From: Membranipora membranacea | Lineage: Eukaryota > Bryozoa > Gymnolaemata > Cheilostomatida > Membraniporidae | DNA length: 64,000 nt | Reading direction: 5' to 3' | NCBI GenBank assembly: GCA_914767715.1 | Contig: OU612074.1 | Coordinates: 6,713,501 to 6,777,500 of the forward strand | Shown: piece after piece, positions 28,990 to 57,926 of the stretch | Layout: every line of letters starts with the position of its first letter | Position numbering within the stretch: the stretch's first letter is position 1 | The notes under the pieces: model-generated | The model's database searches: none | What the model was told of the DNA's origin: nothing | The model's input: the letters and a program-made list of their open reading frames with translations, nothing else | Made by a program: the position numbers and the translations under genes

Positions 28990-31196
28990 TTAATTTTTGT
29001 TTTTGTGAGCTGGAGATCTTTCTTGCTTGGGTGCTGGTCTTGGGCCTGCTGCGCTTCTCTTGTTTCTGTGAGCTGGTGATCTATCTTGCTTGGGTGCTGG
29101 TCTTGGTCCTGCTGCGCTTCTCTTGTTTCTGTGACCTGGTGATCTACCTTGCTTGGGTGCTGGTCTTGGGCCTGCTGCGCTTCTCTTGTTTCTGTGAGCT
29201 GGTGATCTATCTTGCTTGGGTGCTGGTCTTGGACCTGTTGCGCTTCTCTTGTTTCTGTGAGCTGGAGATCTTTCTTGCTTGGGTGCTGGTCTTGGTCCTG
29301 CTGCGCTTCTCTTGTTTCTGTGAGCTGGTGATCTATCTTGCTTGGGTGCTGGTCTTGGTCCTGCTGCGCTTCTCTTGTTTCTGTGAGCTGGTGATCTATC
29401 TTGCTTGGGTGCTGGTCTTGGTCCTGTTGCGCTTCTCTTGTTTCTGTGAGCTGGTGATCTATCTTGCTTGGGTGCTGGTCTTGGTCCTGCTGCGCTTCTC
29501 TTGTTTCTGTGAGCTGGTGATCTATCTTGCTTGGGTGCTGGTCTTGGTCCTGCTGCGCTTCTCTTGTTTCTGTGAGCTGGTGATCTATCTTGCTTGGGTG
29601 CAGGTCTTGGTCCTGCTGCGCTTCTCTTGTTTCTGTGAGCTGGTGATCTATCTTGCTTGGGTGCTGGTCTTGGTCCTGCTGCGCTTCTCTTGTTTCTGTG
29701 AGCTGGTGATCTATCTTGCTTGGGTGCTGGTCTTGGTCCTGTTGCGCTTCTCTTGTTTCTGTGAGCTGGTGATCTATCTTTTTTGGGTGCTGGTCTTGGT
29801 CCTGCTGCGCTTCTCTTGTTTCTTTGAGCTGGTGATCTATCTTGTTTGGGTGCCGGTCTTGGACCTGCTGCGCTTCTCTTGTTTCTGTGAGCTGGTGATA
29901 TATCTTGCTTGGGTGCTGGTTTTGGTCCTGGTGCGCTTCTCTTGTTTCTGTGAGCTGGTGATCTATCTTGCTTGGGTGCTGGTCTTGGTCCTGGTGCGCT
30001 TCTCTTGTTTCTGTGTGCTGGTGATCTATCTTGCTTGGGTGCTGGTCTTGGTCCTGTTGCGCTTCTCTTGTTTCTGTGAGCTGGTGATCTATCTTGCTTG
30101 GGTGCTGGTCTTGGACCTGCTGCGCTTCTCTTGTTTCTGTGAGCTGGTGATCTATCTTGCTTGGGTGCCAGTCTTGGACCTGCTGCGCTTCTCTTGTTTC
30201 TGTGAGCTGGTGATATATCTTGCTTGGGTGCTGGTCTTGGTCCTGGTGCGCTTCTCTTGTTTCTGTGAGCTGGTGATCTTTCCTGCTTGGGTGCCTGTCT
30301 TGGTCCTACTGCGCTTCTCTTGTTTCTGTGAGCTGGTGATCTATCTTGCTTGGGTGCTGGTCTTGGTCCTATTGGGCTTCTCTTGTTTCTGTGAGCTGGT
30401 GATCTATCCTGCTTGGGTGCTGGTCTTGGTCCTGTTGCGCTTCTCTTGTTTCTGTGAGCTGGTGATCTCTCCTGCTTGGGTGCTGGTCTTGGTCCTGCTG
30501 CGCCTCTCTTGTTTCTGTGAGCTGGTGATCTATCCTGCTTGGGTGCTGGACTTGGTCCTTTTGGGCTTCTCTTGTTTCCGTGAGCTGGTGATCTATCTTG
30601 CTTGGGTGCTGGTCTTGGTCCTGTTGCGCTTCTCTTGGTTCTGTGAGCTGGTGATCTATCTTGCTTGGGTGCCTGTCTTGGTCCTGCTGCGCTTCTCTTG
30701 TTCCTGTGAGCTGGTGATCTGTCTTCCTTGGGTGCCTGTCTTGGTCCTGATGCGCTTCTCTTGTTTCTGTGAGCTGGTGATCTATCTTGCTTGGGTGCTG
30801 GTCTTGGTCCTGCTGCGCTTCTCTTGTTTCTGTGAGCTGGTGATCTATCTTGCTTGGGTGCTGGTCTTGGTCCTCCTGTCCTCTCACTACCATTTTCTCT
30901 TGCTACATGGTCACCTGTTTGCTTTCTACCACCAAGTACAGCACCTAAAACATAGAACAGCTAACTCATAAACTGCAAGGCTTATGAGATAATTTTTAAA
31001 ATTTCATTTAGAATGCCTTGCTAATGGAAAAATTTTTTCATTTAAAGTGTTATTCTGTTCAACTCGAACAGCCATCAATTACAGCTCTGAATTAAATGGG
31101 AATCCTAAAAAAAAACCAACTTATGCTGACATTCATAAAATACTCACTGGCACCAAGGATAGTGAAAACCAGGGCGATGAGGATCAACTTATTCAT
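28990..31196 (-). CDS. Multi-peptide secreted precursor, copy A (30 repeats)
   Basis: CDS exons 31148-31196 and 28990-30944, 667 residues. Exon 2 codes MNKLILIALVFTILGA and splits a Ser codon at a GTGAGT donor; the acceptor TTTTAG before 30944 completes it. A 22-residue spacer with an N-glycosylation sequon (ENGS) follows, then 30 copies of a 21-residue unit: core GPRPAPKQDRSPAHR, then NKR, then SA plus a variable residue, ending in NKN and TAA. Four prolines, a PRP motif and net positive charge mark each unit. R-N-K-R before Ser fits the furin consensus R-X-K/R-R; Lys-Arg is kept at all internal junctions as read by eye, though one lacks the distal Arg. Such precursors are cut in the secretory pathway into many peptides. 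Apidaecin-type antimicrobial precursors are the nearest known analogy in design, not in sequence. No Gly precedes the cleavage site, so amidation is not expected. A polyadenylation signal AATAAA (minus) lies at 28848-28853. Confidence 0.85.
28993..30873 (-). repeat. 63-bp coding minisatellite, copy A (29 full units plus one partial)
   Basis: Head-to-tail 63-bp units encode the 21-residue peptide repeat. Unit length is a multiple of three and no indel breaks phase, so several frames on both strands stay open. Substitutions are unevenly spread: the units between about 30240 and 30760 are the most varied, and the rest are close to consensus. Confidence 0.95.
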
Positions 31197-31197
31197 T
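31148..31197 (-). other. Signal-peptide exon of peptide gene A
   Basis: A 50-nt exon between a TTTTTGTAG acceptor and a GTGAGT donor. It holds one untranslated base, the ATG and 16 codons (MNKLILIALVFTILGA), and ends in phase 1. The same exon occurs in units B (43009-43058) and C (57878-57927) with identical protein sequence. Confidence 0.85.
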
Positions 31198-31462
31198 CTA
31201 CAAAAACAATAACATGAGTTGTAAAGAACAGACGCATCAGAGATAATATATTGTTCCAATTTTATTAAAATAATAATAATAATGATGTCAATTTGAAGGA
31301 TAGATTCTCAAGAAAATAATCACTTGGTGTGTAGGCTTTGATCTGAATGGCTTGCTATTTATAAATGATAAATATACAATATTACTAGATAATTGACTAC
31401 GCATACCAATTTAATGATTGGTTCAGTATACACCAATATGTATAGGAGTTCAGGAAACTTAC

Positions 31463-31530
31463 TTGCTCTGCGTTGCTGACTGGTCAAACAGACATGTGTG
31501 CCTTCTCCAGATCTCTCCCAGCCTTTTATA
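31463..31530 (-). promoter_or_regulatory. TATA box and untranslated exon 1 of peptide gene A
   Basis: TATAAAA on the minus strand at 31524-31530. About 30 bp downstream a short non-coding exon should begin (near 31498) and end at 31463, directly before a consensus GTAAGT donor (31457-31462). Distance and order match a focused RNA polymerase II promoter. The block is conserved in units B and C. Confidence 0.7.
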
Positions 31531-32289
31531 CGTCTATGACTCCTGTCCGGACTTCTTTTGACATGATTCCTCAATTAGTTAATATTAAGATACTCATTAT
31601 GATCAAACATGGTAAATCAGAAGGATAAGGCTGTCTTTTATCATGTAATTTGGGTATTTTTGTAAATAATCCGAAAGAGGAAACGAAATGGAAATGACCT
31701 CAATGAGCATTTTCAGAGCCTAGCTAAATTCAATTTTCCAACAATCAATTGTGAAGCTTTTTTTTGACAGATATTGAAATATAGGAAACCCTTAACTTTA
31801 ATGCTCTTTTCATAAACAACATTACATCATGCCATCTACTAAAAGAAAAGTTGTTAGTGGACATCCTGTATCCTGCTCAGTCCTGCTTGCATATCCCTTG
31901 ATGAATATGTCTAGCGCTTCCAATGAACAATTACTTTAGCTGTCTCGCATAAAAATCCTGCTAGTATATTTTCACTCTCTCCAGTTGTAGCTGATGCGGT
32001 CGATTAAGATCTGGTAAACCATTTGGCAAGACAAAAAAATTGAGTTGGGACCGTTTCTGAACTCAATTACAATTACCAATGACTAAACAGGCCACTCGAA
32101 TAATATTTTCTTATTATTGGTTGGCATGAGCCATTATGAATCAATTCTTATTGCTTTCAGTAGAGGAAATGAGTTAATTAAATATTTTATTACGTTGTCA
32201 ATATGAGCAGGAAAGGCTCGTTTCTTATATTGCACAGCCTGTTCCAAGAGACATCATAATGGAGAGAATGAGAGTTGCCGCCCTTCAGG

Positions 32290-34925
32290 TTATATATACT
32301 TTTTATTGGCATCAAAAGTCATCTCATTCGAAATGTTTTGCACTCAGTGCCAGAAAACAATTTTTTTTTATAACAAAAAAGAGAAACAGAAGGGAAATAA
32401 TATCATCAATGATGCTGGTCAAGTCGATAATATATGGTTGAAAAGTAAAGTTTTGAATGAACTGAACTTCTCTTTAGATCTCAAATGTAACGGTAAAGAA
32501 TTGTATGTAGCAGAAACTTTGTATCTTAGATTGTCTGTATGATATAAAAGTAAATGTTTATCACGAAAATTGAACTTGGTAGTGTTTTTAAATCCTCTAT
32601 ATATAAATGGAGGTGTTAAAAAATTGTTTATCTTATGCGCAAAAAGTGAAGTGAAATAACAAACAAGCTTAGGAAGAGGTAGGAGTTGTAATGATTGTGT
32701 AATGGATTCGGTTGAAATGAGATAATATGGGATGTAATGCACATTGGCGATAATGCGTAAAGCCCGTTTTTGCAACAAAAATAATCTATTGAGGGCATTA
32801 TTGCAGGACAAGTTGCCAATGATATGGATACCATATATAAGGTGACAATAGATAAACTGGAAGTAAAATGTGCGGGCACTTGCTATATCCAAGAAGTATC
32901 TCAAATTTTGAAGTAGGTAAACAATCCGTTGTACCTTTTTATATACATACTCTAGATGATCCTGCCATGAAAGCGAGTCATTCAACACAAAACCCAGAAG
33001 CCTTGTAGTTCTCTGTCTGTTTAGTTTTTCATGCCCTATGTACAGTTCCAGGTCATAAAGCGGATCTGAGATGTTAAGTAGCATGTAATGAGATTTCTGA
33101 ACATTTATAACCATCCGGTTACGATTGCACCAATCCAAAATGCCACTTAAATCTTCAGATGCCTTTGCCTTTAGTTGCTGAAGGTTTTTATTAGATGACA
33201 GGAACACTGTATCATCAGCATATGCATATGATGATGAGTCTGATTTTGATGAAGTTAATAAATCATTTATGAAGATGAGAAATAAAGTTGGTGCTAGGAT
33301 TGAACCTTGAGGGACCCCTATTGTGATAGGCAATCTACAAGATTCAATATTATTGAGTTTAACAAACTGCCTTCTGTCTGTCAGAAAGGTGTCAAGAAGT
33401 TTTAACATATTTCCTCCGATGCCGCAAGCCTTCAACTTGTTGTGTAGTAAAACATGGGATACACAGTCAAATGCCTTTTTAAAATCCAGAAAAAGTAATG
33501 TCATAACTTTTCCATTAATTTTCTCCACCAAAGAGTCTGAAATAATTTTAAATAAACTGTCTGAACAAGAATGGCCTTTTCTAAATCCACATTGAAGCTC
33601 ATGGATGATTTTGTTCTTAGTGAGATATTCTTGCAGATGGTGATTTATGTGTTTCTCAAATATTTTTGAAAGAACAGGCAAGACTGAAATTGGCCTATAA
33701 TTTGATGGGTTATTTATATCCCCAGATTTATGTATTGGTGAAACTCGAGCTAGTTTCCATGTTGAAGGGAACTGTCCTTTGCTTAAAACCCTGTTAAACA
33801 TATCGGTGACAATATCCACAATATAAGGCCAAACAAGCTTCAACATCTTCACTGTAATTCTGTCAGGTCCTGTACTTTTACTATCAGGAATGTGGAACAA
33901 TATTCTTGTACATGTGAAAGGGGTGAATTGTGGTATGTCTGTCAAATTATGTTTGGATACGGGAAATGTCATCTCATCTGTTACAACAAGGTTCTTTGTG
34001 ATTGATTTTGCAATGGATGTGAAATGGCTGTTAAATTGATCTGCACTCAAATTTGTCGCAGGGAAAGTCTCCTTCTTTTTATTCTTTAATACATCCCAAA
34101 CAGGTTTTGTATTACCTTTAGACTCTTTAATAGTATTAGAAATAGCTCTTTTCTTCTTTTGTCTGATCATATTAGTGACATAATTTCGCTGTTTTTTATA
34201 TCCTTCCCAATCACCGTTTTGTTTGAGTTGATCTCTGAGTTTGATGTTCATTTTTACCTCATCATCCAACCATTTTGGAAGATTATGCGTTCTTACAAAA
34301 CGAGTCTTCTCAAACACGAGTTTTGATATAAGATGATTCAAATGGCTATAGAACTTCTCAAACATTGAGTCTATTGATCTTTCATACAGTACGTAACCAA
34401 AATTTTCCCTTGAGAATGTGTTAAAAATGTTTTCAGGTGTTGCAAATGAATAATCCAAAAATGTTACCTTACATCTTTGTTTAGATATTTTAACATTTCT
34501 ATCAATCTCTCTTGAAGCTACTATCATGAAATGATCACTCAGTGAATATTTGATGACACCAGATTTAGCAATATTGTCACTTTTACTTGAATAGATGTGG
34601 TCAATTAGTGTCCTTGATGAATTAGTTATGCGAGTGGGTTCAGATATAAGTTGATTCAACAGTAGTGGAGAGGTAACATTATCTAACCACCTGTTTTTCG
34701 AAGTTGGATTCAGCAAATCAATATTGAAATCACCAAATATTATAATTTCATCGTTCAAACCATAACAACGCTCGACAAACTCTGAAAAGTCTGTGTTCCA
34801 TGATGCTTTTGATTGGGGAGGTCTATATAAGTATGTGATAGTTATATAGTTTATATATGTTAAATATGTTGTTAAATATAGTTTATATATATATGTTTAT
34901 ATATAGTTAAATATGTGTATATATA
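32290..34925 (-). mobile_element. 5'-truncated LINE retrotransposon in unit A
   Basis: Units B (near 44250) and C (near 59010) hold the uninterrupted site, reading straight from the CCCTTCAGG/CCCTTAAGG side into TTTGATAGTTATTGTA, so the insertion limits are clear. Similarity to the related LINE in unit C ends at about 34838; a further 85 bp of TATATA-rich filler precedes host sequence. The 3' end lies at about 32290. Loss of the 5' part is typical of target-primed reverse transcription. Confidence 0.85.
32419..34758 (-). CDS. LINE ORF2 fragment: C-terminal endonuclease plus reverse transcriptase
   Basis: 779 uninterrupted codons, of which the first is not a true start: the frame runs on upstream as YLYRPP and SKASWNTDF, part of the endonuclease domain, to the truncation at about 34838. 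Visible motifs are GDFNIDL and SDHF of an APE-type endonuclease, then reverse transcriptase blocks (STGPDRITVKML, YRPISVLPVLSKIFEKHIN, LFLDFKKAFDCVSH, GVPQGSILAPTLFLIFINDL, and YAYADDTVFLSS near residue 510) and a C-terminal region. The style fits the Jockey/CR1 assemblage. The catalytic YADD is intact, but most of the endonuclease is missing, so it cannot move by itself. An unbroken frame implies a young insertion. Confidence 0.85.
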   Translation of the reverse strand: MNDEIIIFGDFNIDLLNPTSKNRWLDNVTSPLLLNQLISEPTRITNSSRTLIDHIYSSKSDNIAKSGVIKYSLSDHFMIVASREIDRNVKISKQRCKVTFLDYSFATPENIFNTFSRENFGYVLYERSIDSMFEKFYSHLNHLISKLVFEKTRFVRTHNLPKWLDDEVKMNIKLRDQLKQNGDWEGYKKQRNYVTNMIRQKKKRAISNTIKESKGNTKPVWDVLKNKKKETFPATNLSADQFNSHFTSIAKSITKNLVVTDEMTFPVSKHNLTDIPQFTPFTCTRILFHIPDSKSTGPDRITVKMLKLVWPYIVDIVTDMFNRVLSKGQFPSTWKLARVSPIHKSGDINNPSNYRPISVLPVLSKIFEKHINHHLQEYLTKNKIIHELQCGFRKGHSCSDSLFKIISDSLVEKINGKVMTLLFLDFKKAFDCVSHVLLHNKLKACGIGGNMLKLLDTFLTDRRQFVKLNNIESCRLPITIGVPQGSILAPTLFLIFINDLLTSSKSDSSSYAYADDTVFLSSNKNLQQLKAKASEDLSGILDWCNRNRMVINVQKSHYMLLNISDPLYDLELYIGHEKLNRQRTTRLLGFVLNDSLSWQDHLEYVYKKVQRIVYLLQNLRYFLDIASARTFYFQFIYCHLIYGIHIIGNLSCNNALNRLFLLQKRALRIIANVHYIPYYLISTESITQSLQLLPLPKLVCYFTSLFAHKINNFLTPPFIYRGFKNTTKFNFRDKHLLLYHTDNLRYKVSATYNSLPLHLRSKEKFSSFKTLLFNHILST

Positions 34926-35644
34926 GTTTGATAGTTATTGTATAGGGTTTCTGCATTACTTCCTTCATCCTCTCTCCGCTATAATTGTTACAAAATTTTC
35001 TTGGAAAGATATTCTATCATATTTCAAAGCTTTATTTACATCACATTTTTGCATCCCGCTACAAAAAATTTGTCCTGATTGAGCTTTCAATATCAAACTA
35101 CAGCTGTGATCCAAAGGATATCCTGTACCGGTTGTCATTTCTAACTGGTAATAATTTGTGCATAATATAATGACTCTTACTCACTTCCACATTCAGTTGT
35201 CATTAAATACAAAAATTACAATACAGAGCAGATCCTGCAATATAGGAAACACACCCAGTAAAAAGACTTACTTCCAATCAAGTATAATTATTGTTGATAA
35301 TTTAGTGATACAATTCTTATACAATATAAAATGGCAAATCCGGTTTATTAGCAGTATTTGAATGTATACCATAATGGCGTTGTGCTTCATAACGCCAAAA
35401 ATAACTTCTATTTGTCCACTATAGCTGAAGTGTTTTGGTAGAACTTGTGATAAAACTGACTCATTGTGATGCCGTATTTAATGCTTTGCTAACCGACAGC
35501 TAACTAAAATTGTTAGAATGATTTCGTAATTGTGTATTAATGTAATTATACCCAACATAGATTATTTTGAGCGGTTATCAGTGCATCCCATCCCTGAGTT
35601 AAGACTTTTTAGTTAATCACTTCCTCAAAATTTAACAAGATTGT

Positions 35645-35900
35645 TGATTAAAGGTTGATTAAAATCCGATGTCTTATCACTCGCCCATCCCGAGGCATGG
35701 GCGGCGAAATATTATTGCCTTATTGGAGAGGCCGCAATATCTGCGCCAAATTGCTCTCAGTTTGCAGGCAGCTCGGAGCACACCTGGGGGACCAACCAAT
35801 CCCGAGTAGAAGATGGACTGCAGTGGGATTCGAACCCACGACCTTCAACACTTGCGTGTTGAAGTCCGGCACTCTAACCAACTGAGCCACCTCCTACTCC
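35645..35900 (-). mobile_element. tRNA-derived SINE, unit A copy
   Basis: On the minus strand it begins near 35900 with a tRNA-like head: A box TGGCTCAGTTGG (35878-35889) and B box GGTTCGAATCC (about 35826-35836). A 160-bp tail unrelated to tRNA follows. The head has no acceptor-stem pairing, so it is not a tRNA gene. The matching place in unit B (about 44965) is empty; unit C carries the same insertion. Confidence 0.75.
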
Positions 35901-38002
35901 TGTTGTTGCATTTAATGTATAAAGCATTCTTTACCAGATGCAGTGTCTTGTATTTCACCCTTGCCATGAAGTCTATAATAGCAGAAAAAAAATAACATCC
36001 AGATACAAATATGATTCATGCCAAAAATGTTAGAATATTGTGTCAATATGCTTGTATCCTTTTAAGACATCATAAAGCAAGACCCATTTATTTTTAATCG
36101 CCTTTACATATTAATTTATAATTATCACAACTTCCGCTTCCAAATTCCAACTTTTATAACAAAAAAAAAGAAACAGAGAAAATGACAATATTAGTTATAA
36201 TTCAGCATATAATCTGACAACCTTTGATCTCAGAAGCATACCAGATTATCAGTCTGGCAGCTAGTTATACAGCAAAAATTCAAGAATTTCATCGAAAAGT
36301 TTGTTAAAAACTATATATAGTATAAGAAATTGTCCCCTCATCGCATATACAAGGTGCCCATAGACCTACTAATAATAATAATAATAATCTCTATGAGAAA
36401 AATGCCATTATAGCTAATAATCAGTCACGCTCAAAAAGTAAAACCATTCATTGCAACATGCACTGTGCACAACACAGTAACGTTCTGTCATTGGGGAATT
36501 CCAGTTATTATAGGCCTCACTGCTCAATGTATAAGCTCTATATCTGTCACCTGTCTAGGTTTATTGTTAGTAGGTCTATGATTCAGCACAATAAAAAATT
36601 ACTTTAATGTACTTTGATTTATTGATTTTTTTTCGATATCAGTTATAAAACAACTATATTTATATAGGGTAAGGAGACCCCATCTCATTTTTTTTGGTGC
36701 AAAAATATTGCATAACTATTGCAGAACTTGCTGCCATACTTGATATTACTTTTGAATCTATGTAGCCTTTAATCATTACTGATCATAGCATGCAGTTCCA
36801 TAACTATGTGTTGGATGCATATTTATTAATGTTTTATTCATCTGAAACTTGTGATTTGGCTAAGAAATTAAACTTACTAAATTCAGACAAATTTTATCTA
36901 GGTCAGGTCAGAACGCTTCATAATGCTATTATGTCTTCCACTGAGATGGGCAACAAGCTTTATTTTGACAGAACTCTTGTGCTTGATAATTGTATAGAGT
37001 ATTTACTCCCTGCTGAAGCCTTGAAGTCTTCTCCTTGCCAATGATATTCATCCAGATAAGCTAATGAAGAGCAAACAGGTATAGGCAAATGGAAATATCA
37101 TTATAGCATTAGCTCATTTCCTCTACTGTGCACAATAAAGTTTGTTTGATTATGGGTCATGCCGACCAATAATTAAACTGAAAAACATATTTGCCAGGCT
37201 AGTGAGTTGGTATAAATGATGTAGTTTGGCAATCCTGTTTGACGTATGCAAGCAATTTTGATGTTTTTTTATCAAACATCAATTTGTCTTATTCCATCTT
37301 GAGATTGTCTTCCATAAGAAAAAAATTTACTTTTATGTCAAACTTCTGCTAGAGTGACAGAGCATGTAAATATGTGTTACAACCCCTACAGTGCCTTATT
37401 TACATCTCGTACATAAATTATATACCCTGGAAAATCCAAAGACATTCTGCAAATCAATCCCGTTTTGCAATTGCGGAGTCTTCGAACTGGCTATGTCTCA
37501 GCGAATAAATGCTAGGTCTTTTCACCAGTGGTGTATTAACAGCGAGCCTTCCGCAATCGAAATTGTGAAAATTCATCATCACACAGATTTCCCTCTCAAT
37601 ACACATTATTCAACAACCTGTTTTTATTTGTGTGACTTGTTATTGGTTAGGCCCATAAACTTTCCAATTATCCAATTATCTAATTCCATTACATGTACTG
37701 AGACTGTTATTTTCACCGTCCATGACTAAACTCAATGATGTGGTTCCGTGATCTTGTAAGTCTAATATTTGTTTCACACATCGAGAAGGTAAAAAGCTAG
37801 AGAAGCATTCAACTCCAGCAGGAGAGAGAGAGCACACAGCATGAAATGATAAAGACATACCTCAAGAGTATTTTGCTGAGGCGTCATGTTTCAATTATCA
37901 CAGATATTCATATTGTTTACATGTTTAGGGTGTAGCAACACTTCACATCTCAATCTGAGGCTACGTTTTTTAAAGTTCTTCTTTTAATCTGCTCTTCAAA
38001 AA

Positions 38003-38515
38003 ATGAGCAATTTTAGCCTTTTAATGCTGTTTAATGTAATAGTCATCAGTTCAAACCTACACCATCTTAAAGATCTCGTCAGCAGCAACACATACATGGT
38101 AAATATGACATCATCTACCATCACATACACTAGAGAAGAGCTGCCGAAATTCAAGGATAGTACACAAAGAGACAATTTATTCAATTGGCGCCATGTTGAC
38201 ACTTTCGTACGCCCGACCTTTCATAACTCAGGTCAAAGAATCTTTACAATTATAAGTAGTAGGCTACCAGTGTCAAACCATGTCGACATTCCATACCAAC
38301 AAAAGAGGTACTCTAATCTATTAACAATACCCACATTCCAATCCATTGTGGATTATAAAATAGATAGGGCCGGATCCACGAGTGTGATTGGGAGAGCAGG
38401 GGTTGCGGAAGCGCCTTGGTCGATCCCCCACTGTGGCTATGGCCAGCCGTTACTGACCGGCGCACAATGCCAGAACATTAGCTTTAGGTCTGAGGGTGAT
38501 AGAAGCTGTAGTTAG
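38003..38515 (+). other. Hypothetical ORF, 170 aa, unit A
   Basis: ATG-started frame with a hydrophobic beginning (MSNFSLLMLFNVIVISS), then YTREELPKFKDSTQRDNL. The YTREEL.. phrase recalls N-terminal text of some LINE ORF2 proteins, so this may be an old retroelement scrap. In unit B the same frame stops after 118 residues (47054-47410) because of a TGA following IVDY. Unit C lacks the region. Function unknown. Confidence 0.25.
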
Positions 38516-41399: not shown

Positions 41400-43057
41400 T
41401 TAATTTTTGTTTCTGTGAGCTGGAGATCTATCTTGCTTGGGTGCTGGTCTTGGGCCTGCTGCGCTTCTCTTGTTTCTGTGAGCTGGTGATCTATCCTGCT
41501 TGGGTGCTGGTCTTGGTCCTCTTGCGCTTCTCTTGTTTCTGTGAGCTGGTGATCTATCTTGCTTGGGTGCTGGTCTTGGTCCTGCTGCGCTTCTCTTGTT
41601 TCTGTGAGCTGGTGATCTATCTTGCTTGGGTGCTGGTCTTGGTCCTCCTGCGCTTCTCTTGTTTCTGTGAGCTGGTGATCTATCTTGCTTGGGTGCTGGT
41701 CTTGGTCCTGCTGCGCTTCTCTTGTTTCTGTGAGCTGGTGATCTATCTTGCTTGGGTGCTGGTCTTGGTTCTCTTGCGCTTCTCTTGTTTCTGTGAGCTG
41801 GTGATCTATCTTGCTTGGGTGCTGGTCTTGGTCCTGCTGCGCTTCTCTTGTTTCTGTGAGCTGGTGATCTATCTTGCTTGGGTGCTGGTCTTGGTCCTCT
41901 TGCGCTTCTCTTGTTTCTGTGAGCTGGTGATCTATCTTGCTTGGGTGCTGGTCTTGGTCCTGCTGCGCTTCTCTTGTTTCTGTGAGCTGGTGATCTATCT
42001 TGCTTGGATGCTGGTCTTGGTCCTCTTGCGCTTCTCTTGTTTCTGTGAGCTGGTGATCTATCTTGCTTGGGTGCTGGTCTTGGTCCTGTTGCGCTTCTCT
42101 TGTTTCTGTGAGCTGGTGATCTATCTTGCTTGGGTGCTGGTCTTGGTCCTGCTGCGCTTCTCTTGTTTCTGTGAGCTGGTGATCTATCTTGCTTGGGTGC
42201 TGGTCTTGGTCCTGCTGCGCTTCTCTTGTTTCTGTGAGCTGGTGATCTATCTTGCTTGGGTGCTGGTCTTGGTCCTGCTGCGCTTCTCTTGTTTCTGTGA
42301 GCTGGTGATCTATCTTGCTTGGGTGCTGGTCTTGGTCCTGTTGCGCTTCTCTTGTTTCTGTGAGCTGGTGATCTATCTTGCTTGGGTGCTGGTCTTGGTC
42401 CTGCTGCGCTTCTCTTGTTTCTGTGAGCTGGTGATCTATCTTGCTTGGGTGCTGGTCTTGGCCCTGCTGCGCTTCTCTTGTTCCTGTGAGCTGGTGACCT
42501 ATCTTGCTTGGGTGCTGGTCTTGGTCCTGTTGCTCTTCTCTTGTTTCTGTGAGCTGGTGACCTATCTTGCTTGGGTGCTGGTCTTGGTCCTCTTGCGCTT
42601 CTCTTGTTTCTGTGAGCTGGTGATCTATCTTGCTTGGGTGCTGGTCTTGGTCCTGATGCGCTTCTCTTGTTTCTGTGAGCTGGTGATCTATCTTGTTTGG
42701 GTGCTGGTCTTGGTCCTCCTGTCCTCTCACTACCATTTTCTCTTGCTACATGGTCTCCTGTTTGCTTTCTACCACCAAGTACAGCACCTAAAACATAGAA
42801 CAGCTAACTCATAAACTGCAAGGCTTATGAGATAATGTTTTAAATTTTATTTAGAATGCCTTGTTAATGGAAAAATTTTCTCGTTTAAAGCCATTCAGTC
42901 TGTAGTGTTATTCTGTTCAACTCGAACAGCCATCAATTACAGCTCTGAATTAAATGGGAATCCTCAAAAAAAAAACCCAACTTATGCTGAAATTCATAAA
43001 ATACTCACTGGCACCAAGGATAGTGAAAACCAGGGCGATGAGAATCAACTTATTCAT
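41400..43057 (-). CDS. Multi-peptide secreted precursor, copy B (21 repeats)
   Basis: CDS exons 43009-43057 and 41400-42787, 478 residues: the same signal peptide (MNKLILIALVFTILGA), the same spacer residues, then 21 repeats of the 21-residue unit ending in AHRNKN and TAA. Lys-Arg is present at all 20 internal junctions by eye. Position 21 of the unit alternates over much of the array between Ala (SAA) and Arg (SAR), giving a 42-residue higher-order repeat. One unit has ASKQ for APKQ and one has KRRA for KRSA. The frame is open throughout and the splice phase matches copies A and C. AATAAA on the minus strand lies at 41260-41265. Roles as for copy A: secreted, probably processed into about 20 cationic peptides. 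Confidence 0.85.
41403..42716 (-). repeat. 63-bp coding minisatellite, copy B (20 full units plus one partial)
   Basis: The most homogeneous of the three arrays. Alternation of CTGCTGCG and CTCTTGCG-type junctions on the + strand marks a 126-bp dimer period through the lower-coordinate half. Confidence 0.95.
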
Positions 43058-43320: not shown

Positions 43321-43388
43321 TTGCTCTGCGTTGCTGACTGGTCAAACAGAGATGTGTGGCTTCTCCAGATCTCTCCGAGCCTTTTATA
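43321..43388 (-). promoter_or_regulatory. TATA box and untranslated exon 1 of peptide gene B
   Basis: TATAAAA at 43382-43388 (minus), exon 1 ending at 43321, donor GTAAGT at 43315-43320. Slightly diverged from A and C (for example GATGTGTGG on the + strand where they have CATGTGTGC). Confidence 0.7.
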
Positions 43389-47410: not shown

Positions 47411-48654
47411 TTAGATAGGGCCGGATCCACGAGTGTGAATGGAAGAGCAGGGGTTGCGGAAGCGCCTTGGTCGATCCCCCACTGTGGCTATGGCCAGCCG
47501 TTACTGACCGGCGCACAATGCCGGAACATTAGCTTGAGGTCTGAGGGTGATAGAAGCTGTAGTTAGACTCAGTCAGAATTGGCAGCAGTACATCAGCACA
47601 ACAAGTCATCTAACCCTAATCTAATTCCGTTGTGCCATGTCAGAATAGACAACTCCAGACAGCACCACCATCCCGCTGTTATGATGACAAACTGTCAATC
47701 ACTGACATCTGAGTTATTGAAGCATTAATAAGTGACGTTAAATAGCAAATGATTTTAAACATGAATAAAAATCTGCCTCCTTTAGATGATAGACAAATAA
47801 ATTTGGCTTGTTACATAAAAAAGCTATATGATGCTGACAACATTGCTGTGGCAGTCAACTGCCTGACACGGGAATTTCACGCTTGTTGATTAAAATATGG
47901 GTTCCCTTGCAATGTATGCAACTGATATGGTGCCATCTTGGTCAGCAAACTTTAGAGGCATCAAAGCTGAGATAAAAAGGAAAAGTCCCTCTTTTCAATC
48001 TTGATAGGAAATAAGTGATGAGAGTTTGACGTGATTGGTTTTAGCGTCACATCGACGGAAAGTTGGCAGTCAGGGCAGGCTATATTGGCTTCATGTTGTG
48101 CTTATACTGCTCCTTGATGAAGAGATTCATAAAGTTCAGAAAATACGATGCTTTGTGTGTCAGCAGTATATCATAGGGTGAAGGAGTTTAGACATACCCA
48201 TATAACAGGCTTTCAATTGATATTATTGAAACTTTTCAACATAAAAATTCCAGCATATATCAAACCATATAAATGCTGTAGGAAAAATCTGAAGTAGTAG
48301 GATTTAAGGCTTATTTACATTCATTTACCCTCTTTACTTATATCCAGACTCCCACTTCAACTAGCGATAACTAAGTGCCAGCTAACATGAAAACACCTAA
48401 CCTAGCTCAACTTACAAGTAGCCTTCTTTAGGGGATTTACTGTACCGAAGGTCTGGACATTAAATGTGCACCAAGATCACTGCTATGCAAGCTATGCCAG
48501 CAATTCAAGCAATACCAGACCATACAAGTCAAATATCACAAACAACTGAGGTCTTGAGCCAGGCTTCATCCAAGACTTATTTGCCACCTATAAAATTATT
48601 AATTAAAACGGCCAATTTGAGACTGCATAACTGTAAAAAAAGACAAAAGATAGA

Positions 48655-51600
48655 AACTATATACTTTTATTGGCAACCAAAGTCATCTCATTCGAAATGT
48701 TTTTGCACTCAGTGCCAGAAATTTTTTTTTTAAAACAAAAAAAGAGAAACAGAAAGGAAATAATATCATCAATGATGTTGGTCAAGTCGATAATATATGG
48801 TTGAAAAGTAAAGTTTTGAATGAACTGAACTTCTCTTTAGATCTCAAATGTAACGGTAAAGAATTGTATGTAGCAGAAACTTTGTATCTTAGATTGTCTG
48901 TATGATATAAAAGGAAATGTTTATCACGAAAATTGAACTTGGTAGTGTTTTTAAATCCTCTATATATAAATGGAGGTGTTAAAAAATTGTTTATCTTATG
49001 CGCAAAAAAGTGAAGTGAAATAACAAACAAGCTTAGGAAGAGGTAGGAGTTGTAATGATTGTGTAATGGATTCGGTTGGAATGAGATAATATGGGATGTA
49101 ATGTACATTTGCGATAATGCGTAAAGCCCATTTTTGCAACAAAAATAATCTATTGAGGGCATTATTGCAGGACAAGTTGCCAATGATATGGATACCATAT
49201 ATAAGGTGACAATAGATAAACTGGAAGTAAAATATGCGGGCACTTGCTATATCCAAGAAGAATCTCAAATTTTGAAGTAGGTAAACATTCCGTTGTACCT
49301 TTTTATATGCATACTCTAGAGTCTAGATGATCCTGCCATGAAAGCGAGTCATTCAACACAAAACCCAGAAGCCTTGTAGTTCTCTGTCTGTTTAGTTCTT
49401 CATGCCCTATGTACAGTTCCAGGTCATAAAGCGGATCTGAGATATTAAGTAGCATGTAATGAGACTTCTGAACATTTATAACCATCCGGTTACGATTGCA
49501 CCAATCCAAAATGCCACTTAAATCTTCAGATGCCTTTGCCTTTAGTTGCTGAAGGTTTTTATTAGATGACAGGAACACTGTATCATCAGCATATGCATAT
49601 GATGATTAGTCTGATTTTGATGAAGTTAATAAATCATTTATGAAGATGAGAAACAAAGTTGGTGCTAGGATTGAACCTTGAGGGACCCCTATTGTGATAG
49701 GCAATCTACAAGATTCAATATTATTGAGTTTAACAAACTGCCTTCTGTTTATCAGAAAGGTGTCAAGAAGTTTTAACATATTTCCTCCGATGCCGCAAGC
49801 CTTCAACATATTGCGTAGTAAAACATGGGATACACAGTCAAATGCCTTTTTAAAATCCAGAAAAAGTAATGTCATAACATTTCCATTAATTTTCTCCACC
49901 AAAAGGTCTGAAAAAATTTTAAAAAACTGTCTGAACAAGAATGGCCTTTCCTAAATCCACATTGAAGCTCATGGATGATTTTATTTTTAGTGAGATATTC
50001 TTGCAGATGGTGATTTATGTGTTTCTCAAATATTTTTGAAAGAACAGCCAAGACTGAAATTGGTCTATAACATGATGGGTTATTTATATCCCCAGATTTA
50101 TGTATTGGTGAAACTCGAGCTAGTTTCCAAGTTGAAGGGAACTGTCCTTTGCTTAAAACCCTGTTAAACATATCGGTGACAATATCCACAATATAAGGCC
50201 AAACAAGCTTCAACATCTCCACTGTAATTCTGTCAGGTCCTGTACTTTTACTATCAGGAAGGTGTAACAATATTCTTGTACATGTGAAAGGGGTGAATTG
50301 TGGTATGTCTGTCAAATTATGTTAGGATACGGGAAATGTTATCTCATCCGTTACAACAAGGTTCTTTGTGATTGATCTTGCAATGGATGTGAAATGGCTG
50401 TTAAATTGATGGATGGATGGATTTATTACTATCATAGACAAAAATTTGTCACGAAATACGTTGTTAATACTGACAAGAAAGAAAAACATGGAAAAATCAG
50501 ATCTCTGTTGTATAAAAAGATTTTTAGAATAGTATATTATTAAGTGTATGTATGAGATGTCTTAAAAAGCTGTCTCTACCCCATGTACCCCGATATTTAA
50601 CGGTGCGGTAGCGACCTGAGGGGCATTTAGTTAGAAAGTCATTGGTAAAGTGCTCTTCATCGTGTATGTATCGTAGTCCAAGTGTCTTGATCTGGTTGGC
50701 CACCAGAGCATCTATATCGGGTTGCTCAATCCCTAACTTGGCGGCATCTTTAAATATTTTGCGTAAGGACTTCTTGTTGCTTGCATGGATGCTTGTAAAA
50801 AGTATGGGGAGACAGTAAGTGATGAGGGATACAATAAAACTCTTGAATAACATATGAGAAAGGGGCTTTGAGCTATAGTATACAACATTTTTCACAATAT
50901 ACATGCGTTGAGATGCAGTAGTCACTATGGATTGCACATGATCATGATAGCGGAGTTTATCGTCAACAGTAACACCAAGGTATTTTACTTTGTCACAAAA
51001 ATCAACTTCCGTGCCGTTAAGGATAAGAGTAGGGGTAATGCGCCTAACAAGCTGAGTAGAAAACATCATTTCTTGAGTCTTGGAGGCGTTTGACAATAGG
51101 CTTAAATCACAACATTGCTTTGAAATTCTACTAATCTCATCAAGATAGGCACTAAGATCTGATTGATTTGATATGCATCCAATTATACAGGTCTCGTCTG
51201 CGTATTTAATGACAGTTATATTGCTCAAGTCTGAGGTAATCCTATTGGTATATATTGAAAACAAAAGTGGAGATAAACAGCAACCCAGGGGAGTGCCAGT
51301 GTTGGTTATGATGGGTTTTGAGATATTGCCATCTACTATTGTTCTTTGGGTGCGATTCGTTAGGAAGCTGTATATCCATTCAGTGACATTGGAGTCGAGA
51401 TGTGATAGTTGCGAGATTAAGTCTGGAACATGTATTGTGTTGAATGCAGAAGAAAAGTCAAGGAACAGACACCTGGCATAATTTGAAGCTTTCTTGTCAA
51501 TGAAATCTGTGATGGTAGTAGTGAGGCATTAAAGAGCATCTTGAGTTGAGCGGTTTGCACGATAAGCAAACTGAAGGTGGTCCATAGCTGTATGAGTAAT

Positions 51601-53095
51601 AATGTAAAGTCTCTCCATCATTTTGCACAGGCAACTGGTGAGCGCTATTGGTCTGTATTGTTTAAGTTGATTGGGATTCTTAACTTTGGGTAGGGGTTTG
51701 ATAATGGCCGATTTCCAGGAAGTAGGGGTTGACTTAGACGTGATAGATAAATTGAACAGTTTCGTTATGACAGGCGCCAGTTGATAGGCACATAGCTTAA
51801 GTACTTTGGGGATGAGGCCATCAGGGCCTGGACCTTTCCTCGAGTTCAACGATTTCAACTGCTTTAAGACAGTAGCCTCTTCTATTTCTAAAGGTGGTGC
51901 TATGGTGGCGTTGTTATTGATGTCAGGACGGTCAGTGAGAGGCTTCTCAAATCTTGTGAAGAAGGTGTTTAGGTCATCTGAGTTGAATGGATTTTATTGA
52001 GTTGGTTTTGGGCTATTAGTAGGTAATCCAATAATCTTTTTAATGTCAGTCCAGGCTTTAGCAGGTTCTTTTGCTAGGCTATGCTGTATTTTCCGAGAGT
52101 ATTCATCCATGTGTTCAAGGCTTTTCACTCCTCTAGGCTGGTATATGAGGGTGATTATAAGTGCCAGTATGAACAGAGGCTGCATTAGCTGCGCCATTGT
52201 GTTGAACAGTAAAAGTATTATTTAAATACTGGATTACAGAGAGAATTTGAAAAGACAACCTCACTCTGCAAGAGCCAACTGCCAACTGCACTCAAATTTG
52301 TCGCAGGGAAAGTCTCCTTCTTTTTATTCTTTAATACATCCCAAACAGGTTCTGTATTACCTTTAGACTCTTTAATTGTATTAGAAATAGCTCTATTCTT
52401 CTTTTGTCTGATCATATTAGTGACATAATTTCGCTGTTTTTTATATCCTTCCCAATCACTGTTTTGTTTGAGTTGATCTCTGATTTTGATGTTCATTTTT
52501 ACCTCATCATCCAACCATTTTGGAAGATTATGCGTTCTTACAAAACGAGTCTTCTCAAACACGAGTTTTGATATAAGATGATTCAAATGGCTATAGAACT
52601 TCTCAAACATTGAGTCTATTGATCTTTCATAAAGCACGTAATCAAAATTTTCGCTTGAGAATGTGTTGAAAATTTTTTCAGGTGTTGCAAATGCATAATC
52701 CAAAAATGTTACCTTGCATCTTTGTTTAGATATTTCAACATTTCTATCAATCTCTCTTGAAGCTACTATCATGAAATGATCACTCAGTGAATATTTGATG
52801 ACACCAGATTTAGCATTTTTATTGTCACTTTAACTTGAATAGATGTGGTCAATTAGTGTCCTTGATGAATTAGTTATGCGAGTGGGTTCAGATATTCAAC
52901 AGTAGTGGAGAGGTAACATTATCTAACCACCTGTTTTTCGAAGCTGGATTCAGCAAATCAATATTGAAAGTCTGTGTTCCATGATGCTTTTGATTGGGGA
53001 GGTCTATATAAATATGTGACCAAAAAACTCTTTTGGCTTCTGGGTCTGACCTTGACTGTTATACTCTCATCCATATAAAGATCTAAATTTTCCAG
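48655..53095 (-). mobile_element. Decayed LINE in unit C, same family as the unit A LINE
   Basis: Pieces 48655-50403 and about 52290-53095 are one element split by a nested insertion. It reaches further 5' than the unit A copy, adding endonuclease residues (HLENLDLYMDESITVKV, then YLYRPP). The reading frame is broken: an 8-bp duplication near 49318, a stop just before the YAYADD block at about 49606 (a Ser codon in unit A), and frame changes near 49900. The insertion site differs from that in unit A: host flanks match about 26555-26570 of unit A. Confidence 0.8.
50404..52289 (-). mobile_element. Second LINE (CR1/Rex-like) nested inside the unit C LINE
   Basis: It splits the outer LINE between TTAAATTGAT and CTGCACTCAAA of the unit A counterpart. 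Its 3' end (minus strand) is a short (ATCC)n microsatellite tail, as in CR1-group elements. In one frame it codes SRKGPGPDGLIPKVLK, YRPIALTSCLCKMMERL, LFLDFSSAFNTI, GTPLGCCLSPLLFSIYTN, KYADETCIIG and VKYLGVTVDDKL, ending TLNNILF. Two in-frame TAA codons break it (about 51529 and 51994). YADE replaces the catalytic YADD. Inactive. Confidence 0.75.
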
Positions 53096-54040
53096 ATGAG
53101 GAATTTTCCAAAATGAGGAATTTCTACAGGAAAACTCTTTTTTTTCCTAACCCAGAAGGTTTTTCAAAGGTTCAGTCTATTTGCTGGCCAGATAGTGTGT
53201 TTGGTCAGGTTATATCGCCAAAAACATAGATTATTCTCTCTCATTCCGCCCAACCAGCTCCTAATAAAAAATCAACATAAATTTGTTAAAGATGGTTAAT
53301 GGAAAAGTCTGGCATCACATTGTCTTGAACCAACACTCTATGTTTTAATGCCCCGTCAGCAGTGATCAGCCTTATATGGCTATTGAGTTGTTTTCTGAAA
53401 GTACCCAACAGCTCAGTGAGCTATTGAAATACCTCTCTGCTTGCACTATTTTGCTACCGATATGCAAAAATTTCCGTGCTGGGAGGGCGCTTAAGCGCCC
53501 CTCCCACACCCTCCCCGCCACGCCTACGGCGTGTGGATCGGGCTGCGCCCGCTTATTATGCTCATCTCTGAAAAGTCAGTGAGTGAAATTTTTTCGAATA
53601 TACGCCCCTGCATACAAGTAAAATATCACAAAAAACTGAGGTCTTGAGCCAGGCTTCATCCCAAACTTATTTGCCACCTATAAAATTATTAATTAAAACG
53701 GCCAATTTGAGACTGCATAACTGTAAAAAAGACAGAAGAAAGAAAATGAGGAATTTCTACAGGAAAAGTCTCTTTTTTTTTTTCTAACCCAGAAGGTTTT
53801 TCAAAGGTTCAGTCTATTTGCTGGCCAGATTGTGTGTTTGGTCAGGTTATATCACCAAAATCATAGATTATTCTCTCTCATTCCGCCCAACCAGCTCCTA
53901 ATAAAAAATCACCATCAATTTGTTATAGATGGTTATTGGAAAAGTCTGGCATCACATTGTCTTGAACCAACACTCTATGTTTTACTGCCCTGTCAGCAGT
54001 GATCAGCCTTATATGGCTACACTGCCTGATGGTAGAGGCA
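53095..54040. repeat. Partial tandem duplication inside unit C
   Basis: The host stretch equal to about 26440-26840 of unit A appears twice: once in part after the LINE (53095-53382) and again from about 53622 to 54040, with the GC-rich insert between. Both keep phrases such as CTATTTGCTGGCCAGAT. Confidence 0.6.
53383..53620. repeat. GC-rich palindromic insert in unit C
   Basis: Placed between two partial copies of the same host stretch. It contains a perfect palindrome, GGGCGCTTAAGCGCCC, flanked by GGGAG and CTCCC arms (about 53480-53505), followed by further short inverted motifs (ACGCCTACGGCGT, CGGGCTGCGCCCG). Its base composition stands out from the AT-rich surroundings. Possibly a foldback element remnant. 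Confidence 0.5.
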
Positions 54041-54462
54041 GTGGTTAATGGTAAAACATTATCATCATATTGGAACTGACAAACATGTTTCGTCATGGAT
54101 TGAAGTATTCATGAGCGCAATACAAAGCTGTGGTTCACAGTGAATCATGCCGGCAGTTGATGTCCCTGCTTCCTACAGTAGCAAAAATGTGTCTAAATTT
54201 GGTGATTTATGTCTATCACAGACTTAATTCCTTAGCCAAAAATGCTTTAGTAACATCACATGAATTATCTGTGATACACACATATGTGCATCTATTTATC
54301 TTTACTACTATAGTGTGCTATTATCCGGACAGATGAAGGACTTTGTGTTTCTCAAAAAGAGTAAAAAAATGTGCTTTGCTATGCTTTTCAATCTAAAATA
54401 ATTTGCTTAAAATTTGAGATCAACAGCATATTGTGATTGCTGACCAGATTCCCATAGGGTAA

Positions 54463-54877
54463 TCAGGGAGCATGTGAGGCGAATAGCCAAGGCTCCAAGA
54501 CCTGGGAATTACTCTTATCAGAATTATAAAGGGAGTTGAAATAGTAAATATCTAGGACTTTCCCTGTGTGCGGATCATGGCCAACAAATTTTGGGAATGT
54601 GACATAAAATAGCTGTGTAACTGTAACAACAAAGACGTTGATTGGCATTGTAATCGATGAGAGCAGTAACTGACTGACACAGGCATGGCAGATGATGCAT
54701 TGGGATGATGCCATATGGGTCAGCAAACTTTGTACACATTCTACCAAAATTATGTCGGGCAAGTTTCTCCTTTCTTAGCTTGATAGGATAAAATTGATTG
54801 AAATCACAGGTTCTTATGATTGCTTTCAGTGTGACATTGACAAGAGGTTGGCAACCATGCTCATCTCTGGCTTTCAA
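54463..54877 (-). pseudogene. Unit C copy of the decayed ORF at 27.2-27.7 kb
   Basis: Two overlapping minus frames, as in unit A: ARDEHGCQPLVNVTLKA and MCTKFADPYGIIPMHHL in one, LFYVTFPKFVGHDPHTG in the other. It shares the same change of frame, so the break predates the triplication. Unit B keeps only its 5' part (about 39780-40020). Confidence 0.3.
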
Positions 54878-55916
54878 CTTAAAAAGCTTATTGTAGATTT
54901 ATATGTTCTTAACCCTCACCTTTCAAATTTTCAACCCACCAAATGTAGGAAAAGCCAATTCAAAAATCTTGATCTGGACAATTCACCAGTTTTCCATAAA
55001 TAAATTAGGAAATTTAATAGTATTTTACTTGGTCTGTATTTAATTGGTATTTTATAGGTTTGTTTTGACTGTTGAAGATGCTTGTAGGCTGTGGATGAGA
55101 TGTATCACGAGAAATTCTTGGGGGCCCATGAGCTCTACCTTGATCAGTTTCCAATTCAAATGCAAAATCGTGTAAGACAGCCAGCTAAAAGCTAACTGTA
55201 CATTAAAAAGTGATACTAGGTAAGCAGCTTAACATCCTACCTCATCTAACATCTATCAATCAGATATAGTATGATAAATACTGCAAAAGGTATCACTGCC
55301 ACCTCAGGCTGGCTTCTCAGTCAACATTTTAACTGTTAGTAATCTGATAACTTCCACTTGACTTATTGAGCAAATTACGATCATGCTACTCCGGCTTGGT
55401 CGTTGCAGATGCGCCCCAATGTAGGATATATAACTTTGAGAACAAGGTATCAAACGTATGAAAAGACAACTCTGTATTGACCCACCCACCAAAATATGAG
55501 AAATATGACGGAATGAGGTAAAGTGATGTGAGGTCCAAATAATGATTATGGGCTCAAAACATTGGCGAAGGAGAGGTAGTTATAAATGAAGTGCAGATAG
55601 TAATGACAACCAATCTTATAGAATTACCTGGATGTGAGTTCATCTTAGCAAACACATTTCAATTTTATATTATGCTCAAGAACAGACGCTCAGGTAAATC
55701 ACACATATTTCAAAACCCGGTTGATGTTAGAACTCAAGGTTTAGATTGTAAATATCAGGAGCAGGCCAAGATGTCCTAGACTCAGAATCGAAAAGTTAAC
55801 AAATACTAAAAATTTTGGAAAGTAAAATATGAATTTTTTTAAATTTACTGAGGCATTTCTGTTTTGTCTAAACTAAATGACAACAATCATACTGGGAGTG
55901 AGTATCATGGGTCACA

Positions 55917-57926
55917 TCACCTGTATTCAAGAGGGGATAGCTTAGACTGAGAGGAGGATAGATTGTTTCTGTGAGCTGGTGATCTATCTTGCTTGGGTGC
56001 TGGTCTTGGGCCTGCTGCGCTTCTCTTGTTCCTATGAGCTGGTGATCTATCTTGCTTGGGTGCTGGTCTTGGGCCTGCTGCGCTTCTCTTGTTCCTGTGA
56101 GCTGGTGATCTATCTTGCTTGGGTGCTTGTCTTGGCCCTGTTGCGCTTCTCTTGTTTCTGTGAGCTGGTGATCTATCTTGCTTGGGTGCTGGTCTTGGTC
56201 CTGCTGCGCTTCCATTGTTTCTGTGAGCTGGTGATCTATCCTGCTTGGGTGCTGGTCTTGGTCCTGCTGCGCTTCTCTTGTTTCTGTGAGCTGGTGATCT
56301 ATCTTGCTTGGGTGCTGGTCTTGGCCCTGTTGCGCTTCTCTTGTTTCTGTGAGCTGGTGATCTATCTTGCTTGGGTGCTGGTCTTGGTCCTGCTGCGCTT
56401 CTCTTGTTTCTGTGAGCTGGTGATCTATCCTGCTTGGGTGCTGGTCTTGGGCCTGCTGCGCTTCTCTTGTTCCTGTGAGCTGGTAATCTATCTTGCTTGG
56501 GTGTTGGTCTTGGCCCTGTTGCGCTTCTCTTGTTTCTGTGAGCTGGTGATCTATCTTGCTTGGGTGCTGGTCTTGGGCCTGCTGCGCTTCTCTTGTTCCT
56601 GTGAGCTGGTGATCTATCTTGCTTGGGTGCTTGTCTTGGCCCTGCTGCGCTTCTCTTGTTTCTGTGAGCTGGTGATCTATCTTGCTTTGGTGCTGGTCTT
56701 GGTCCTGCTGCGCTTCTCTTGTTTCTGTGAGCTGGTGATCTATCCTGCTTGGGTGCTGGTCTTGGTCCTGCTGCGCTTCTCTTGTTTCTGTGAGCTGGTG
56801 ATCTATCTTGCTTGGGTGCTGGTCTTGGCCCTGTTGCGCTTCTCTTGTTTCTGTGAGCTGGTGATCTATCTTGCTTGGGTGCTGGTCTTGGTCCTGCTGC
56901 GCTTCTCTTGTTTCTGTGAGCTGGTGATCTATCCTGCTTGGGTGCTGGTCTTGGTCCTGATGCGCTTCTCTTGTTTCTGTGAGCTGGTGATCTATCTTGC
57001 TTGGGTGCTGGTCTTGGTCCTGGTGCGCTTCTTTTGTTTCTGTGAGCTGGTGATCTATCTTGCTTGGGTGCTGGTCTTGGTCCTGGTGCGCTTCTTTTGT
57101 TTCTGTGAGCTGATGATCTATCTTGCTTGGGTCCTGGTCTTGGTCCTGATGCGCTTCTCTTGTTTCTGTGAGCTGGTGATCTATTCTGCTTGAATGCTGG
57201 TCTTGGTCCTGTTGCGCTTCTCTTGTTTCTGTGAGCTGGTGATCTATCTTGCTTGGGTGCTGGTCTTGGTCCTGCTGCGCTTCTCTTGTTTCTGTGAGCT
57301 GGTGATCTATCTTGCTTGGGTGCTGGTCTTGGTCCTGTTGCGCTTCTCTTGTTTCTGTGAGCTGGTGATCTATCTTGCTTGGGTGTTGGTCTTGGTCCTG
57401 CTGCGCTTCTCTTGTTTCTGTGAGCTGGTGATCTATCTTGCTTGGGTGCTGGTCTTGGTCCTGCTGCGCTTCTCTTGTTTCTGTGAGCTGGTGATCTATC
57501 CTGCTTGGGTGCCTGTCTTGGTCCTGCTGCGCTTCTCTTGTTTCTGTGAGCTGGTGATCTATCTTGCTTGGGTGCTGGTCTTGGTCCTCCTGTCCTCTCA
57601 CTACCATTTTCTCTTGCTACATGGTCACCTGTTTGCTTTCTACCACCAAGTACAGCACCTAAAACATACAACAGCTAACTCATAAACTGCAAGGCTTATG
57701 AGGTAATGTTTTAAATTTTATTTAGAATGCCTTGCTAATGGAAAAATTTTCTCGTTTAAAGCTATTCAGCCTGTAGTGTTATTCTGTTCAACTCGAACAG
57801 CCATCAATTACAGCTCTGAATTAAATGGGAATCCTCAAAAAAAAACCAACTTATGCTGACATTCATAAAATACTCACTGGCACCAAGGATAGTGAAAACC
57901 AGGGCGATGAGGATCAACTTATTCAT
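55917..57926 (-). CDS. Multi-peptide secreted precursor, copy C (26 repeats, altered C-terminus)
   Basis: CDS exons 57878-57926 and 55917-57658, 596 residues. Signal peptide and spacer are as in copies A and B, then 26 repeats of the 21-residue unit (core GPRPAPKQDRSPAHR). R-N-K-R is present at 24 of 25 internal junctions; unit 22 reads RNNGSAA and so would stay joined to its neighbour. Other variants are PRQAP, PRPTP, AFKQNRS and DRSSAH. The tail differs from A and B: a deletion of about 285 bp relative to unit A fuses the array to downstream DNA, so the protein ends NLSSSQSKLSPLEYR instead of NKN. The AATAAA kept in A and B falls in the deletion, so 3' processing may be altered. Confidence 0.85.
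55962..57587 (-). repeat. 63-bp coding minisatellite, copy C (25 full units plus one partial)
   Basis: 26 units. Position 21 varies (Ala, Thr, Ser, Pro), and short runs of units recur in the same order, as expected from unequal exchange inside the array. The lower-coordinate end stops inside a repeat unit at the deletion junction. Confidence 0.95.

Follow-up and report, generated by a model that had tools for sequence, protein, structure and literature searches.

A multi-copy family of putative multi-peptide precursors built on one conserved signal exon in the bryozoan Membranipora membranacea

The stretch of the Membranipora membranacea genome considered here (64,000 nucleotides of contig OU612074.1, hereafter “the window”; C10:6713501-6777500 of the 339-Mb, 18-contig genome) contains three paralogous minus-strand genes, A, B, and C, which probably encode secreted precursors of many short cationic peptides. 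Spliced at GT/AG consensus sites, the genes give products of 667, 478, and 596 amino acids (aa), each consisting of a signal peptide, a linker, and then a run of 21-residue units (GPRPAPKQDRSPAHRNKRSAA), 30 in A, 21 in B, and 26 in C, where the counts include the shortened or chimeric last unit of each gene. The coding parts lie between 28990, the end of the gene A stop codon, and 57926, the ATG of gene C. Tandem Repeats Finder reports a period of 63 bp and 0% indels in all three arrays, at copy numbers of 29.9, 20.9, and 25.9. Upstream of each array the order is the same: a TATA box, an inferred intron in the 5′ untranslated region (5′UTR), a coding exon for MNKLILIALVFTILGA, and a phase-1 intron, 203 bp long in A, 221 bp in B, and 219 bp in C. 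The calculated mass of the full-length chains without the signal is about 51–71 kDa. The products of A and B contain no Cys, Trp, or Tyr and stop directly after the array, with no anionic C-terminal propeptide. The original prediction, a model’s reading of the letters alone, had described three intact genes joining a signal peptide to 30, 21, and 26 such units; the coordinates, splicing, and repeat counts bear out this structure, with “intact” a loose term for C, which carries a deletion fusion.

The unit consensus is GPRPAPKQDRSPAH-R-N-K-R-S-A-A. The minimal furin motif R-X-K-R occurs at 72 of the 74 internal junctions (28/29 in A, 20/20 in B, and 24/25 in C), the exceptions being GNKR in gene A and RNNG in gene C, and Ser follows nearly all sites, with GAA and RAT found instead once each. 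Gly stands immediately before none of the 74 internal sites. The predicted 19-mer is SAxGPRPAPKQDRSPAHRN, where x is A in 41 of the 74 cases, T in 15, P in 5, R in 5, S in 4, and K, I, V, or G in 1 each. It is 21% Pro with a charge of about +2.5 and one PRP per consensus unit, lacks any F, W, Y, I, L, M, or V, and the repeat consensus has neither an RRIL motif nor a lysine cluster. On average, two units of the same gene show 3.5 differences in A, 1.89 in B, and 3.74 in C, and two units of different genes 2.8–3.68 (chimeric unit C26 included); being alike within and between genes, the units are not gene-specific. Leaving aside residue 21 of the unit, 50 of 87 changes are synonymous. Both the R-N-K-R before Ser at nearly every junction and the lack of an amidation Gly, as first proposed from the sequence, are thus upheld.

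The signal exon carries much of the evidence that these genes code for protein. The signal and linker of A, B, and C differ at 0–2 of 118 sites, all synonymous, against summed totals of 25/1276 to 72/1182 differences in their introns and the non-coding sequence upstream. Between the three subfamilies of the wider family described below, about 6 of 12 synonymous and 3–5 of 36 non-synonymous sites of the signal exon differ, which gives a ratio of non-synonymous to synonymous differences per site (pN/pS) of 0.14–0.25 (nine chosen exons; means over 12, 8, and 6 between-subfamily pairs). The phase-1 splice, the GTRAGT donor, and the junction Ser codon are common to the four loci examined. Judged by these comparisons, the signal exon is under purifying selection across subfamilies. 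Signal-like ATG starts are also rare: 6 of the 1003 ATGs in the window pass a simple rule, three of them those of genes A, B, and C, as do 7 of 4329 ATGs in mononucleotide-shuffled DNA, although this rule was drawn up with the A/B/C signal in view and is not SignalP.

Table 1. Features of genes A, B, and C in the window
Feature	Positions	Strand	Remark
Repeat arrays (63-bp period)	28997-30878, 41407-42721, 55963-57592	-	Tandem Repeats Finder
Gene A coding exon 2: linker and 30 units, last shortened, ...AHKNKN stop	28990..30944	-	
Gene A intron 2, 203 bp, phase 1	30945..31147	-	
Gene A signal-peptide exon, coding part (MNKLILIALVFTILGA, phase-1 donor GTGAGT)	31148..31196	-	kept across subfamilies
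Gene A inferred intron 1 in 5′UTR, donor GTAAGT, acceptor TTTTTGTAG directly before ATG	31198..31462	-	consensus only
Gene A TATA box TATAAAAG	31523..31530	-	
Gene A candidate poly(A) signal AATAAA; B has one, deleted in C	28848..28853	-	
Gene B coding exon 2: linker and 21 units, ...AHRNKN stop	41400..42787	-	
Gene B signal-peptide exon, coding part	43009..43057	-	
Gene B TATA box	43381..43388	-	
Gene C coding exon 2: linker and 26 units, last fused by deletion to once-downstream DNA (...RNNLSSSQSKLSPLEYR stop)	55917..57658	-	
Gene C signal-peptide exon, coding part	57878..57926	-	
Gene C TATA box	58253..58260	-	

Genes A, B, and C are members of a wider family than the three-gene one initially described. 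At least 34 places, a lower bound as are the counts for each cluster, form three clusters and one single place on two chromosomes (C10 and C7). Cluster I (C10 6.742-6.875 Mb) holds 13 copies on both strands, 3 of them inside the window; a signal exon could be located in 12 of the 13, with one match lacking the first two residues. Two cluster I members mix peptides. In one of these two, an open array of 1169 aa at C10:6839501-6843007, peptides of the GPRQAPKQDRSPAHRN, SPKGIRPGHRY, and RTKGIIPGHRIY types alternate; each of the three ends in K-R, so that K-R marks the module border. Cluster II (C10 9.94-10.20 Mb) comprises 15 places with short genes whose peptides, among them AIKPLNLRFKPLSYRN and GTEGATLASNQEQPDGHRN, are heterogeneous, and 7 of 8 search loci hold the signal exon. 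Cluster III (C7 17.07-17.18 Mb) consists of 5 long arrays of unrelated units of about 63 residues, all five with the signal exon, and further pieces lie at C7 16.78-17.20 Mb. At the single array at C7 11.39 Mb, a joined signal exon was looked for and not found. The signal exon reads MNKLILIALVFTILGA in the window cluster, MNKVILITLLFAILGA and variants in cluster II, and MNKLILISLLFTIIGA in cluster III, and the peptide payload is wholly different between subfamilies despite this kept exon. Over all K-R/K-K pairs, including internal pairs, Arg occupies P4 at 72/74 pairs in the window, 159/201 in the rest of cluster I, 41/61 in cluster II, and 9/11 at C7 11.39 Mb; R-X-K-R is dominant in clusters I and II and the single array, and cluster III has mostly other basic sites. 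The pattern H/Y-x-N precedes the pair in 71/74, 140/201, 33/61, and 5/11 cases in the same order, and in 43/183 in cluster III. Ends of the type H/Y-R-N-KR dominate in two subfamilies, and RRT-KR and HGN-KK in the third.

We consider it highly probable that genes A, B, and C encode secreted multi-peptide precursors cut by furin or another proprotein convertase (PC)-type protease. The signal exon, array, sites, shared splice, and paralogues are there to be read in the DNA; from them we infer that the precursors are transcribed, spliced, cut, and trimmed. The signal peptide (MNKLILIALVFTILGASA) would target the precursor to the secretory pathway. Cleavage after R-N-K-R at nearly all junctions would fall to a furin/PC-type convertase, and a carboxypeptidase would then take off K-R. 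The output would be many copies of a non-amidated, cationic, 19-residue peptide of about 2 kDa, released in bulk. Other family members would use the common signal exon and splice to deliver other peptides between like sites, and the family-wide predicted products include SAAGPRPAPKQDRSPAHRN, SPKGIRPGHRY, and AIKPLNLRFKPLSYRN, with or without KR. The steps after secretion follow what is generally known of proprotein convertases. The multi-copy precursor plan put forward at the outset thus gains support from the selected signal exon, the 72/74 convertase sites, and the related arrays with other peptides between R-X-K-R.

Several observations weigh against this reading. In the arrays, 15 of 48 distinct changes are synonymous against 11.1 expected, a weak excess (P = 0.067, with C26 dropped), and a control frame holding a stop scores better (P = 0.037), so the array synonymous test fails to single out the gene frame. 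Residue 21 of the unit, three positions past the cut, varies fast, with an amino-acid change in 33 of the 74 clean units and a silent change in none. The codons of the cutting site are kept no better than the rest, each having 1 non-synonymous change across the 74 units. Outside the window, 3 of 10 cluster I copies carry stops within the array, only 45 of the 183 cluster III pairs have Arg at P4, and exon 2 of cluster II is unconstrained (pooled pN/pS of 0.90 among five paralogues, with control frames at 0.46–1.13). The signal-exon comparison is strong evidence and the array-only frame tests are weak.

Such weak tests leave some room for a 63-bp minisatellite that is open by chance, or for coding in another frame (DQDQHPSKIDHQLTETREAQQ, or LVIYLAWVLVLVLLRFSCFCE on the plus strand). 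Because 63 is a multiple of 3, three frames are long-open across the arrays, the gene frame and two others, and frame openness alone proves nothing. However, the gene frame acquires no new stop among 127 changes in the 74 clean units, whereas changes that create a stop occur in each of the two other open frames (3 and 1), whose P values for synonymous excess are 0.71 and 0.88. Moreover, only in the GPRP frame does the array continue the signal exon in phase, and this exon and its join are retained by relatives whose repeats are unrelated. The other frames and the plus strand were rejected on the gained stops, the missing in-phase join, and the signal exon kept across subfamilies, and we regard the minisatellite or other-frame explanation as extremely improbable.

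The products may also be uncut, secreted, disordered, cationic repeat proteins of a matrix, mucus, adhesive, or mineral-templating kind, in which R-N-K-R is simply part of a charged repeat. That conservation within arrays is no higher at the site than in the remaining unit, that the long cluster III arrays largely do without R-X-K-R, and that silaffin precursors are described as secreted cationic repeats (PMC4557024) are all consistent with such a protein. On the other hand, R-X-K-R stands at 72/74 junctions and the different peptides of other members are still bordered by K-R, while A and B have no Cys, Trp, or Tyr for cross-linking and the repeat has no RRIL or lysine cluster. We therefore consider an uncut protein improbable and retain the cleaved multi-peptide precursor.

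For the role of the predicted peptides, host defence is our tentative choice, because the predicted products are cationic, the genes have expanded in tandem with interrupted copies, a conserved signal is paired with a diverged payload, and the arrays would amplify dose. Counting against it, the window peptide has no bulky hydrophobic residue and carries Asp, and the cluster II exon 2 shows no constraint, as noted above. Apidaecin, drosocin, and pyrrhocoricin hold 4, 3, and 5 F/W/Y/I/L/M/V residues and are 25–33% Pro. By analogy, the conserved signal and diverged payload may be compared with those of the myticalins (PMC5577615), and the dose amplification with that of apidaecin (PMC11678341).

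Signalling is a further, rather unlikely, role for the same precursors, with the peptides acting as neuropeptides, pheromones, or epithelial hormones and the H/Y-R-N end binding a receptor. Asn at P3 and His or Tyr at P5 recur in the window, the rest of cluster I, and cluster II at the frequencies given above, and to our knowledge a convertase has no need of either residue. We keep this possibility in view because the shared H/Y-R-N end resembles ligand families. In addition, cnidarian X-PR-X amide precursors are described with up to 50 copies, and an incomplete Exaiptasia precursor with 23 GPRPamide copies (PMC7523074). However, the amidation Gly is absent from all 74 sites, H/Y-x-N precedes fewer than a quarter of the cluster III pairs, and dozens of tandem copies, some interrupted, are atypical of a peptide hormone.

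For the family as a whole, it is possible that one conserved signal exon and quickly exchanged modules define a lineage-restricted animal precursor superfamily, many of whose products end in H/Y-R-N on unrelated bodies. If so, the superfamily would be a modular peptide arsenal or a ligand set of a new chemical type. If the precursors are cut as predicted, they would make up a new family of animal peptides, with precursors that amplify dose and module exchange visible at protease-site borders. The surprise lies in the peptides, the family size, and the recurring H/Y-R-N ends, as the general plan is well known.

The starts of copies A, B, and C are separated by 11.9 and 14.9 kb, and kilobases of flanking sequence are common to the copies within a segmental triplication (25397-62190) whose pieces of >1 kb are 87–97% identical. 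In gene C, about 282 bp after the array, including the stop, 3′UTR, and AATAAA, have been deleted (55917-55963 compared with 28700-28990), which created a new tail of 14 residues; the post-array segment is 312 bp in A and 310 bp in B versus 29 bp in C. Gene A differs from C at 15 of 740 upstream positions and 65 of 806 downstream positions, and from B at 53 of 844 downstream positions. As A and C are close only upstream, the copies are mosaic, a pattern suggestive of exchange inside the arrays or close to them. An assembly artefact in the form of collapsed haplotypes is unlikely, given that A and C are close upstream only and that the cluster has 13 copies. About 0.8 kb upstream of the gene A TATA box lies a long interspersed nuclear element (LINE) with endonuclease and reverse transcriptase (RT), open over 825 aa (32293-34926), and copy C has no insert there. 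A second LINE copy (48658-52969) is interrupted by another RT element (50524-51993). An RT search yielded a protein of 96% identity, and scans for the RT in IMG/VR and GTDB gave no match. Elsewhere in the window, 19145-21491 (minus strand) holds pieces of a collectin-like gene with a signal-like start, collagen repeats (PF01391), and C-type lectin halves (PF00059), one half above and one below the Pfam cut-off. A string of Cys-rich open reading frames with a Ser/Thr-rich end (8407-18713, plus strand), perhaps one large secreted protein, gave no convincing Pfam match among the pieces tested. A tRNA-like Rfam match (5239-5306, minus strand; 36.6 bits) was not called by ARAGORN, whose sole call (59898-59987) is odd, with a four-base anticodon; both are possibly pieces of a short interspersed nuclear element.

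Searches outside the genome itself used the window peptides, and subfamilies II and III were searched within their own genome only. Among 5.8 billion proteins, no relative was found at E ≤ 0.01 or at E ≤ 1 (best 8000 candidates scored each time), in line with the first impression that the 21-residue unit is unfamiliar. IMG/VR gave 3 and the GTDB genomes 51 pattern stretches, 0 of them confirmed as relatives; the PDB gave one chance match only (E 0.18); and no Pfam or NCBIfam family matched the window precursors. Since these collections consist mainly of prokaryotic, viral, and metagenomic sequences, a homologue in an animal could have escaped the searches. A literature search by motif letters found no paper, and by keyword no description of the peptide in the titles or abstract beginnings among the matches listed. 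The family thus appears to be new, while its precursor plan is known from apidaecin and cnidarian prohormones.

Fungal KEX2-processed repeat proteins (KEPs) likewise join a signal peptide to repeats separated by kexin sites (PMC9769878), but they are fungal, whereas the collagen/C-type-lectin gene in the window points to an animal host. Diatom silaffins, as described, also derive cationic repeat peptides from a secreted precursor (PMC4557024) but have RXL/RRIL ends and lysine clusters, both absent from the repeat consensus here. The mussel myticalins and modiocalins share the gene layout, with a 5′UTR-only first exon, an intron directly before the ATG, and a phase-1 second intron, and form a multigene family with a conserved signal and a variable Pro/Arg-rich payload (PMC5577615). 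Unlike the arrays here, myticalins are described with one mature peptide and an anionic C-terminal propeptide, and their signal consensus (MKGXXLLLLTIXXALCMIXECEG) is unlike the present signal. Apidaecin precursors carry several near-identical Pro/Arg peptides with a conserved spacer, in several precursors of differing copy number (PMC11678341), and are alike in this respect. They differ in that all three apidaecin precursors together are given 18 units, compared with 21–30 per gene here, and that the present peptides have no bulky hydrophobics, one PRP per unit, and no sequence relative among the best 8000 candidates scored. The X1PRX2amide precursors (GPRGamide/GPRPamide) of cnidarians are similarly multi-copy and PR-containing, although their products are amidated tetrapeptides rather than parts of 21-residue units without an amidation Gly; as it is GPRGamide precursors that reach the 50 copies mentioned above, high copy number alone is not unusual (PMC7523074).

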